This document shows, piece by piece, positions 2,759 to 35,185 of a stretch of DNA of 37,791 nt. The first letter of the stretch is position 1, and the number at the start of each line of letters is the position of its first letter. The translations under genes were made by a program, and so were the position numbers. The notes beneath the pieces are model-generated. The model searched no databases. It was given only the letters and a program-made list of their open reading frames with translations, and was not told where the DNA came from. The stretch is from Candidatus Iainarchaeum sp. (GTDB lineage: Archaea > Iainarchaeota > Iainarchaeia > Iainarchaeales > GW2011-AR10). The stretch is from NCBI GenBank assembly GCA_016198165.1, contig JACQJF010000013.1:1-37791 (forward strand), written 5' to 3'.

Positions 2759-4078
2759 ATGGATTTTTGGCACGCTCCTTTCCGCTTGTTTTTTTTCCTC
2801 ATAGTGGTTTTTTCACTTTTGCAGGCAGTTGTTGCTGTAGCACCGCACGAGGCGGCGAATTTCATTGTAAAGGAAAACAGTTACCTATTGCAGGGCGAGG
2901 AGTACGAGCAGCCCGTCGTCCCTATTTCCCATGGGGGGAAAAAGTTCTGGGTCGTGCCCGTGGTTTCAGGCGGGAGTGTCGTGACTTTTTTCCCCGTCCA
3001 TTTCGAGGTTTTGGCGGTTTCCACTTCAGCTCCCGTGAACAGGGAGGTTTTCAGGACCGCTGACCTTTTGCGGGAGCTCTCCATTGAAAAAGAGGGCATT
3101 TCAAAGAACCCTTCAGTGGAATGGATTTTCACGCCCACTTATGCCCTTCGTTTTTCGAATCTTTCAAGTGTCCTGGCAAACGAGCGCTTCCAGCTGACGA
3201 CAGTGGCTTCAACCGTCGACTCTGCGCAGGCGTATGACCTCGTGGGGAAACTGAATGTGATGCTTGAAGGGATGTCTGTTTCTGCAGAAAAAACAAGCCA
3301 GCTTGTTTTGGCCGCGTCAAAAGCCGAGAGCGATTTTTTTTCACAGCCTGACACATCAATGTTTGAGTCATTGAAGGAAAATTTTGATTCTGTGGGAAAC
3401 GAGATAGGCCTCTTGAACAGCGCGGCCCTTGATTACAGGCAGGACCTTGAGGGCCTCAAGCAGATTGTTTCCGTTTCAGGCCTTGACCCCTCCACGAAAA
3501 CTTACCTCGTGTCCCTTGCTGACGTTCCAGTTGAATTCAACAGCATTGGGAACTACAAAGTTTATTCCCTCGAGCTCTCGGAATCCATAAATTCGGTTTA
3601 TGCGCGGGTTTCACAGCGCACTGACCCGCTTTTGGAGGAATTCGCGTCACGGCTTGAGCGCCAGGCTGCCTTTGACGAGATTTACGGGCAGAACCCGGAG
3701 GTAAAAGAGAAAACGGAGGGCGGGTTTTCAAGTGCCTCGGAGCTCGTGCTGTTTGTCCTTGCCCCGGAAAACCGGGAGAACTGGAAGAATTCCTCCCTTG
3801 CAAACCGGGTTGAAGACAACTGGAGGCAGGCACAATCGCTCTACAACGGGGAAAAGTATTCCCTCGCGGTTTCTTTTTCCAAAAAGGCACTCGCGGATGC
3901 CTTAAACGTTTACCAAGAGGGCTTTTACCAGCCCCCAATCCAATCCGAGGACTATTCTAGCCTGATTTTTCCGGTTATAATTGGTCTTGTGGTTCTGCTT
4001 GTCCTGCTTGTTGCTTATAATAACCGGGATAAGCTTTTGAGTTTTTCCCGGCAAAAAGATGATTCGGACGAGTATTGA
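2759..4078 (+). CDS. Secreted/surface protein with signal peptide and C-terminal TM anchor
   Basis: N-terminal LFFFLIVVFSLLQAVVAVAP; C-terminal SSLIFPVIIGLVVLLVLLVAYNNRDK. Confidence 0.7.
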   Translation: MDFWHAPFRLFFFLIVVFSLLQAVVAVAPHEAANFIVKENSYLLQGEEYEQPVVPISHGGKKFWVVPVVSGGSVVTFFPVHFEVLAVSTSAPVNREVFRTADLLRELSIEKEGISKNPSVEWIFTPTYALRFSNLSSVLANERFQLTTVASTVDSAQAYDLVGKLNVMLEGMSVSAEKTSQLVLAASKAESDFFSQPDTSMFESLKENFDSVGNEIGLLNSAALDYRQDLEGLKQIVSVSGLDPSTKTYLVSLADVPVEFNSIGNYKVYSLELSESINSVYARVSQRTDPLLEEFASRLERQAAFDEIYGQNPEVKEKTEGGFSSASELVLFVLAPENRENWKNSSLANRVEDNWRQAQSLYNGEKYSLAVSFSKKALADALNVYQEGFYQPPIQSEDYSSLIFPVIIGLVVLLVLLVAYNNRDKLLSFSRQKDDSDEY

Positions 4079-4244
4079 CTATGGGTTCTCCAAGGCTTTC
4101 AAGACTTTTTTTATTATGTTCAAAACTATATTGCCGTCCCGTTGTCAAACGGGACACATATGCGTCGCAGAACCTTTTGACAAACCCGATTTTTGCCCAA
4201 AGCAAAAATGGGCGCATTTTGGCTTCGCCAAAATCGCGAGGTTC

Positions 4245-4278
4245 ACGAAAACCTTGTATTCTCGGCCCATCTTCGATG
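4245..4278 (+). repeat. Direct repeat copy 1 (34 nt)
   Basis: ACGAAAACCTTGTATTCTCGGCCCATCTTCGATG; 33/34 identical to 4305-4338. Confidence 0.95.
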
Positions 4279-4304
4279 CCCCAGAGCCTTTTAACAAAAG
4301 GCTC

Positions 4305-4338
4305 GCGAAAACCTTGTATTCTCGGCCCATCTTCGATG
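4305..4338 (+). repeat. Direct repeat copy 2 (34 nt)
   Basis: GCGAAAACCTTGTATTCTCGGCCCATCTTCGATG; 60 bp downstream of copy 1. Confidence 0.95.
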
Positions 4339-5283
4339 GGCCACATACTGCGGTGCGGGCTGACGCATGCAGCCCATATACTGCGGTGCGGGCTGACGCA
4401 ACAGCTCCACGCAAGGGCTTTTTTGCTGTTGTTTTTCGCCGTTTTTTTGCCTTTTTTTGCTGCGGGAGAGACTGTTTTTGTTTCCATTGAACCGGTAGAG
4501 GGAAGTGGCTTTGAGTTTTATTCTTTCGAAGTCGTGCGTTTCCGCCTGATTGTTTCAAACAATAGTGGCAGTGTTGTTGAAAACTTTAATGCAGTTATTT
4601 TTGCCGGCAATGACTTGACCCTGGTCGTGGATGGGGCTGAAACAAGGTCGCAAAAAATTTCTTTCCTCTCCATAGCCCCCGGTGAAACCCTTTTCAAGGA
4701 ATTCCAGGCAAAAGGCCTTTTTTCCATTGGCAGGAAAACTTCAATCAGCGTGGATTATGGCGTGGGCGGGGAATTGTCCCAGAGTTATTCCGCAGATGTT
4801 TCAGTGAAGCGAAACCCGGTTGAATTCAATGCCCGTCTCCTCAAGGGGGCTCTTGAACCGTTTGAGGCAAACAGCGTGGTTTTCGACCTGAAAAACACGG
4901 GGGAAACCGGGATTTCCACGGTGCGCGTTGAAGCCTTCCTTCCACAGGGCTTTTCTTTCACCGGTGAAAAAATATTTTCCCCGGGTTCCCTTGCGCCCCA
5001 ACAATCTATTCTCAACGCGCGCCTCGATTTTTCCGCCGGACCGGAACCGGTGGGTGAACAGAACGTGACTGTGAAAGCGTTTTTTTCCGATGGGACAAGG
5101 GAGCATGAAATCAGTAAAACTCTCCTGGTTGATGTGCGCAAGCGCGAAAACACCCTTGTCCTGCTTGGGCTTACAGCACTCGTGATTGCAGCCCTCGTCA
5201 TTTTTTTCGGGAGGAAAAAAACAGTACAGGCCACTCCTGGCGTTTCCAATGCGGCTGAAAGCCATGCAGAGCCCCGCCATTGA
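4336..5283 (+). CDS. Surface protein with COG1361-like beta-sandwich repeats and C-terminal TM anchor; N-terminus uncertain
   Basis: ARAFLLLFFAVFLPFFAAGETVFV signal-like segment, RNPVEFNARLLKGALEPFEANSVVFDLKNTGETGISTVRVEAFLPQGF, C-terminal GLTALVIAALVIFFGRKK. The listed ORF (4075 start) is translated through a repeat array; 4336 ATG or a later TTG/CTG are candidate starts. Confidence 0.65.
   Translation: MGHILRCGLTHAAHILRCGLTQQLHARAFLLLFFAVFLPFFAAGETVFVSIEPVEGSGFEFYSFEVVRFRLIVSNNSGSVVENFNAVIFAGNDLTLVVDGAETRSQKISFLSIAPGETLFKEFQAKGLFSIGRKTSISVDYGVGGELSQSYSADVSVKRNPVEFNARLLKGALEPFEANSVVFDLKNTGETGISTVRVEAFLPQGFSFTGEKIFSPGSLAPQQSILNARLDFSAGPEPVGEQNVTVKAFFSDGTREHEISKTLLVDVRKRENTLVLLGLTALVIAALVIFFGRKKTVQATPGVSNAAESHAEPRH
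4344..4400 (+). repeat. Tandem [C/T]ATACTGCGGTGCGGGCTGACGCA units (33-bp period)
   Basis: CATACTGCGGTGCGGGCTGACGCA at 4344-4367 and TATACTGCGGTGCGGGCTGACGCA at 4377-4400; related copy at 35154-35177. Confidence 0.95.
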
Positions 5284-18151: not shown

Positions 18152-18209
18152 TTTATGCCATGTTGGGCACAAGCGGCGCATATATGCCCCTTCTTGCGAA
18201 GTGACAATA
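18152..18209 (-). repeat. Diverged copy of the double-hairpin repeat
   Basis: Minus strand: ATTATTGTCACTTC(gcaa)GAAGGGGC-ATATATGCGCCGC-TTGTGCC(caacat)GGCATAA. Aligns with the 23602-23656 copy. Confidence 0.65.
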
Positions 18210-18288
18210 ATATGTCTGCAATATTAAATTGATTATTAAAGCTACCATGAAAAGATTTTTATTCGTTGCCAAACGCTTTTTTGGCGCG

Positions 18289-23578: not shown

Positions 23579-23601
23579 AGTAATACAGGATTATGTGCCA
23601 T

Positions 23602-23656
23602 ATTACCGTCCCTTCACGGAAGGGACAAGTATGCGGCGTAAACTCCCGCAAGGGTT
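23602..23656 (+). repeat. Copy of the double-hairpin repeat in the divergent argG/ACT-gene intergenic region
   Basis: ATTACCGTCCCTT(cacgg)AAGGGAC-AAGTATGCGGCGT-AAACTCCC(gcaa)GGGTTT. Confidence 0.75.
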
Positions 23657-35100: not shown

Positions 35101-35127
35101 TTTTTTTCACCCTTGCTTATTTATTGT

Positions 35128-35185
35128 ATTATCGCGCCATTGGAAATGGCGCATATACTGCGGTGCGAGCTTACGCATACAGCTC
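35128..35185 (+). repeat. Copy of the double-hairpin repeat next to the ccdA-like stop codon
   Basis: ATTATC-GCGCCATT(gga)AATGGCGC-ATATACTGCGGTGC-GAGCT(tacgcatac)AGCTC. Confidence 0.85.

Follow-up and report, generated by a model that had tools for sequence, protein, structure and literature searches.

An array of hairpins, some of them enclosed in others, lies within the signal peptide of a protein gene in the archaeon Candidatus Iainarchaeum sp. How does such a structure arise, and is it confined to this locus? The window (the whole stretch of DNA that was analysed, 37,791 nt) contains the array in its first part, and the features discussed here are collected in Table 1. The preliminary description, made from sequence alone, placed the array at about 4136–4407; the element is slightly longer. 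All of its structural claims hold. The 34-nt direct repeat, 33/34 identical with a 60-bp period, has its copies at 4245 and 4305, and each is preceded by a hairpin (GAACCTTTT, at 4170, paired with AGGTTC at 4239, and GAGCCTTTTAACAAAAGGCTC at 4284). Two further hairpins, starting at 4189 and 4216, lie within the first of these. The perfect 8-bp stem with a ttc loop (GGCCCATCTTCGATGGGCC, at 4324) and the two 33-bp-spaced units (TACTGCGGTGCGGGCTGACGCA, at 4346 and 4379) are also as described, while the hairpin GTCCCGTTGTCAAACGGGAC at 4136 was not named. We attribute both the 60-bp and the 33-bp periods to tandem duplication. The region 4120–4420, which the same description proposed to fold on both strands, is more stable than every shuffle on either strand: the plus strand folds at −119.5 kcal/mol (z −5.8) and the minus strand at −124.9 kcal/mol (z −4.8), with 0/100 shuffles folding as well in each case.

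Table 1. Coordinates of the hairpin array, its host locus and other family copies in the window. R1 is the core covariance model.
Feature	Position	Strand	Remarks
Upstream flanking gene	2759..4078	+	neighbours host gene in congener too
Host gene, secreted-type protein	4075..5283	+	ATG at 4081; array in frame inside signal peptide
Left T-run, 7 T, presumed target/left duplication	4106..4112	+	congener empty site AAGGCTTTTTTTCCTG
Element	~4113–4418
First unit: AT-rich head ATTATGTTCAAAACTATATTGCC, beta hairpin GTCCCGTTGTCAAACGGGAC (4136–4155), linker ACATATGCGTCGC	4113..4174	+	R1 match 4125–4174, E 6e-8
Alpha hairpin GAACCTTTT ... AGGTTC, split by ~55-nt insert with two hairpins	4170..4244	+
Two hairpins of the alpha insert	4189–4209 and 4216–4234	+
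Linker CTTGTATTCTC and degenerate beta hairpin	4245..4282	+	first 34-nt direct repeat copy, 4245–4278
Second alpha hairpin GAGCCTTTTAACAAAAGGCTC	4284..4304	+
Second unit: linker, beta hairpin GGCCCATCTTCGATGGGCC (4324–4342), ACATACTGCGGTG, gamma hairpin GGGCTGACGCATGCAGCCC (4357–4375)	4305..4375	+	R1 match 4313–4367, E 6e-16
Gamma-module repeat ATACTGCGGTGCGGGCTGACGCAACAGCTC (4378–4407) and 3′ tail ACGCAAGGGC	4376..4418	+	partial model match 4370–4400
Right T-run, 6 T, presumed right duplication	4419..4424	+
Weak family copy	18166..18216	−	R1 E 0.035
Family copy with TATA-like head and 3′ T-run	23597..23650	+	R1 E 1e-9
Family copy, empty in congener	35123..35177	+	6-bp direct duplication TCACCC; R1 E 9e-16

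The locus was compared with that of a congener (genome G001). The upstream gene and the host gene show 84% and 80% protein identity to two adjacent genes of the congener, where the stop of the first gene directly precedes the start of the second (TATTGACATGGTTTTTTCAAGGCTTTTTTTCCTGTTG) and the whole array is missing. The congener signal peptide reads MVFSRLFFLLFFAIFLPFFVAG. In the window, about 310 nt split the junction of this type between the two T-runs, and the locus is 321 nt longer, equal to 107 codons. The array is probably a recent composite insertion, and the T-runs on both sides suggest a target duplication. There are no stops through the array in the frame of the host gene. Two frames on the plus strand and one on the minus strand lack stops, so that an open frame, taken by itself, argues only weakly for translation. 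From reading the sequence, an alternative in-frame ATG lies within the array near 4336.

The window is contig 43 (C43) of its own genome (G000). Elsewhere in this genome the array DNA has about ten matches, and alignment of these places defines a unit grammar: an optional alpha hairpin GARCCTTTTnnnAAAAGGYTC, a linker ending TTGTATTACC, a beta hairpin, ACATACTGCGKYG or ACATATGCGKCG, and a gamma hairpin with loop NCGCAA. The core covariance model combines TATTACC, hairpin beta, ACATAYTGCG and hairpin gamma with its NCGCAA loop. In the own genome (961 kb, 67% complete) it detects 60 copies at E≤1e-3 and 70 at E≤0.1. The same model gives 28 copies for the congener, 57 for G003, which belongs to a different genus of the same family and is 60% complete, and 8 weak matches for the complete genome G002. 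Across the remainder of 93 genomes of the phylum, those of the same order included, there are almost none, and the one or few matches seen are weak. Because most training copies came from the own genome, the counts favour close relatives. At one locus of G003 (L010), both the head and the unit are homologous to the first unit of the window. The core pattern found nothing in viral contigs, and a scan of a genome collection matched one Chitinophagaceae and one Kaiserbacteria contig, no more than a rough chance estimate for the pattern. As a side observation, some copies lie at the extreme ends of contigs (L096 / G001:C74, L093 / G001:C7), suggesting that the repeats may break assembly.

Pairing of flanks against 652 kb of the congener succeeded for 21 of the 40 own loci examined. 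Besides the window array, the sites of C10:27779, C21:2782, C21:4975, C32:6897, C43:35123, C47:18751 and C62:7480 are empty in the congener. The copy at C15:21667 is also missing there, and a different element is found about 60 nt away. The reverse case is C62:11152 of the congener, a clean 76-nt insertion in a T-run, with an empty site in the own genome. Presence and absence at orthologous positions occur in both directions. Several insertions carry direct duplications: T6–7 at C62:11152 of the congener, at C62:7480 and at the window array; TTTTCATG at C15:21667; TTG[C/A]ATG (TTGMATG) at C21:4975; GCTTGATGATTG at C32:6897; that at C43:35123 (Table 1); and about 25 bp with mismatches at C10:27974. 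Their length is not fixed but ranges from 6 to ~25 bp, and some insertions have no duplication. Such variable length is not what a typical DDE transposase leaves. The T-run duplications might also reflect slippage or the element's own T-run. Several duplications end at or just past a start codon, which leaves the gene with an intact start on the downstream side of the element.

The landing sites include structured RNA genes. The own RNase P RNA gene (C21; L123, ~2745–2850) carries a hairpin element of ~105 nt in a peripheral loop region, and the RNase P RNA gene of the congener (RF00373 match, E 9e-23, just under the gathering score) is without it. The tRNA-Gly(UCC) gene (L111, 4191–4366, on G000:C1) has an intron of ~105 nt that contains a copy, the intron of the corresponding congener gene (L103, 3249–3428) contains one with a different beta stem, and other copies adjoin tRNA ends. 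In-frame insertion in protein genes is seen in two cases, the window array with its 107 codons and C52:13145. The N-terminus of the protein at the latter site is made up by the copy; homologues of this protein from the other genomes begin to align only at residue 27–29. Several copies with a TATA-like head sit just upstream of start codons on the same strand. Greedy ORF calling is crude, and we do not rely on its 'inside gene' calls for short ORFs. A head common to C48:1423, C47:18751, C30:13112, C15:16377, C13:3660 and C43:23597 (ATAGTAATCCAAAATTATAT) resembles an archaeal BRE/TATA promoter, and copies with this head might carry a promoter to downstream genes.

Hairpins are inserted in hairpins at several loci. 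The alpha hairpin is interrupted by the ~55-nt double-hairpin insert in the window and at C31, and is found without the insert at C54 and C10 of the same genome. Three sites occupied in both genomes differ in their nested hairpins. Only the own genome has the 54-nt palindrome in gamma of C13:3660 and, within the beta loop of C32:17123, an insert of 15 nt; at C3:8006 it is the congener alone whose gamma holds a palindrome, of ~50 nt. These differences at shared sites directly support the idea of nested insertion. Several loci share a beta-loop module, GCTTGCCCTG..AGGG. Element-bearing stretches are about 3 times as dense in hairpins as their shuffled versions; this figure and the coding figures come from selected stretches only and are biased towards such regions. 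The preliminary description had read the hairpins in hairpins as repeated element insertion or array growth, and this reading is largely supported by the empty site, the dispersed modules, the alpha hairpins without insert and the genome-specific nesting. An identical static locus in all relatives, named there as an outcome that would refute it, did not occur.

Stems turn over while their pairing is preserved. Across 17 copies, 98.5% of the beta stem is paired and 19 changes are two-sided; 0/500 shuffles reach its covariation score. Gamma combines a constant loop with at least 15 distinct complementary stems. For 12 same-position pairs between the own genome and the congener, the beta stems (taken by eye from alignments) give 96 base pairs: 68 are identical, 23 show two-sided changes with pairing kept, 4 show one-sided changes with pairing kept, and 1 is unpaired in one of the two copies. 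Either template-switch correction or a swap of hairpin cassettes among copies would fit the excess of two-sided over one-sided change; template switching is a known source both of hairpins and of multi-base compensatory changes (PMC8794818). An identical beta stem is found with different gamma stems, which fits reassortment. It remains possible that some same-position pairs are instead independent insertions at one position.

We consider that the family most likely consists of selfish non-autonomous palindromic mobile elements and that the array is their composite; the data show dispersal, orthologous presence and absence, direct duplications at some insertions, nested insertion and preserved pairing, whereas selfishness and movement in trans are inferred. 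In this model, a basic element of ~75–85 nt (AT-rich head, TATTACC, beta, ACATAYTGCG or ACATATGCGKCG, and gamma with loop NCGCAA) would insert into host DNA, often in T-runs or beside start codons, and leave direct duplications of variable length. An enzyme, as yet unidentified, would move it in trans. What is conserved is the structure and not the sequence of the stems, which are exchanged or corrected without loss of pairing, and template switching or gene conversion may keep the stems perfect. An array could grow by entry of new hairpin modules into existing hairpins and also by tandem duplication of whole units, as putatively for the 60-bp and 33-bp periods here. The elements would be tolerated in gene 5′ ends, signal peptides, tRNA flanks, a tRNA intron and RNase P RNA because they fold autonomously, have few stop codons in some frames and frequently duplicate the start-codon region. 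No mobilising enzyme was identified in the four family genomes, three of which are incomplete, and reverse transcriptase PF00078 is absent from these four (one complete). No terminal inverted repeats were seen by eye at element ends, and no autonomous partner was found in these incomplete genomes. Compared with what is expected of MITE-like elements, many dispersed copies and orthologous presence and absence are met; a target duplication of fixed length is not. A bolder reading is that the folded hairpin itself moves, jumping into loops and stems and being swapped as a cassette with pairing kept, by an unknown enzyme, and so builds complex structured RNAs in essential RNA genes. This is improbable but not excluded. 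Within that reading the enzyme could conceivably be RNA-templated, given the 3′ T-runs, the T-run targets and the variable-length duplications.

Other accounts of the family are less satisfactory. The repeats could be a functional RNA motif, a leader or processing signal upstream of genes and beside tRNAs, where selection on the RNA conserves linkers and pairing. The conserved unpaired linkers and NCGCAA loop, the covarying stems, the TATA-like heads just upstream of same-strand starts and the several copies adjoining tRNA genes speak for it. However, copies occur in either orientation and within RNase P RNA, a tRNA intron and coding N-termini, and many sites are empty in the congener without apparent loss to the neighbouring genes, so that we regard this explanation as unlikely. 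An Rfam search of the window gave no family match above the gathering threshold. A purely local origin, in which replication template switching and slippage make the hairpins without any mobility, has a known route to hairpins (PMC8794818), and the excess of two-sided changes and the ~3 times hairpin density fit it. It cannot yield common linkers and heads at 60 loci that differ in their flanks, nor can it produce target duplications on either side of insertions whose empty sites are clean. As the sole cause it is already refuted by the common linkers together with the direct duplications, and we hold it very improbable, although template switching or slippage may still explain the correction of stems and some of the nested growth.

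Movement of REP/BIME-like elements by a Y1 (RAYT/IS200) transposase would account for palindromic, dispersed and clustered repeats, and Y1 remnants are present in the own genome and in the congener. However, only fragments of Y1 genes are seen, with none in G003 despite its 57 copies or in the complete G002; the other three of the four genomes are incomplete. Insertion of the IS200/IS605 Y1 type makes no target duplications, whereas direct duplications are seen here. This explanation is therefore also given very little weight. Two further identities are rejected, as the preliminary description had anticipated in calling the array unlike any standard terminator or CRISPR. An intrinsic terminator fails as a full account with units in coding frames, in RNase P RNA, in a tRNA intron and in both orientations. 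A CRISPR array is rejected on structure, with hairpin modules joined by common linkers and no unique regular spacers (cas genes were not considered).

Short palindromic mobile repeats are known from bacteria and organelles, and the mobile-element reading places the archaeal family beside them. Rickettsia palindromic elements are likewise short palindromic repeats lying in frame in protein genes (PMC10969869); they also insert into RNA genes. Here the host is archaeal, the hairpins are shorter and modular, growth is nested and some insertions have direct duplications; the likeness is one of behaviour, without sequence comparison. BOX/RUP/SPRITE of Streptococcus pneumoniae are modular small repeats that cluster and insert in one another (PMC10969869), but differ in module order, sequences and host. 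Small palindromes of Volvox carteri organelles also lie in one another and cluster in an rRNA coding module (PMC2670323). Those are organellar, whereas the archaeal family is chromosomal, has conserved linkers that connect hairpins of two or three types in a set order, and shows empty sites in neighbouring species. The yeast mitochondrial GC clusters (GC42) are palindromic and mobile, with a putative target duplication and with merger and shuffling of clusters (PMC4478555). Their duplications are AG or ACT, compared with 6 to ~25 bp in the archaeal elements, and in them it is mostly the loops that change, the stems being conserved, whereas the archaeal stems change wholesale with pairing kept. 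REP/BIME/REPIN sequences with RAYT (Y1) are similarly dispersed extragenic palindromes in clusters; the archaeal family differs in its target duplications and in that no intact Y1 gene was found. Hairpin elements of sponge mitochondria (PMC2800124) are also among the closest known kinds. Likeness to the Rickettsia, Streptococcus, Volvox, sponge and yeast elements is in behaviour only and we do not claim descent. We found no description of an archaeal family of such elements in the limited open-licence literature searched.

Little is understood of how short palindromic mobile repeats move or of how insertion enlarges complex RNA structures. The two close archaeal genomes provide before-and-after pairs, including empty sites, simple copies, copies with an extra hairpin and copies with swapped stems, and these pairs extend into RNase P RNA and a tRNA intron. 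Nested hairpin growth and compensatory stem change therefore become directly testable.

Several minor observations were made along the way. On contig C47 of the own genome, a 37-bp form of the unit (CTTGTACTACCGAAGGTGTACGCGTCGCGAGCCCGCG) stands in three tandem copies (L118, ~2030–2142). An IS200-type Y1 transposase remnant with an end hairpin lies on G000:C46 (L038, ~1675–1920). In G022, of another family in the same order, an outer stem CTTTCTTTT..AAAAGAAAG surrounds two TTTT..AAAA hairpins in alpha-type nesting (L013, ~1455–1545), and from this case nested hairpin growth may extend beyond the element family. Hairpins of the form GAGCCTTTT..AAAAGGCTCGCGAAAA are found in several families of the order (L011–L015), sometimes adjoining tRNA genes.
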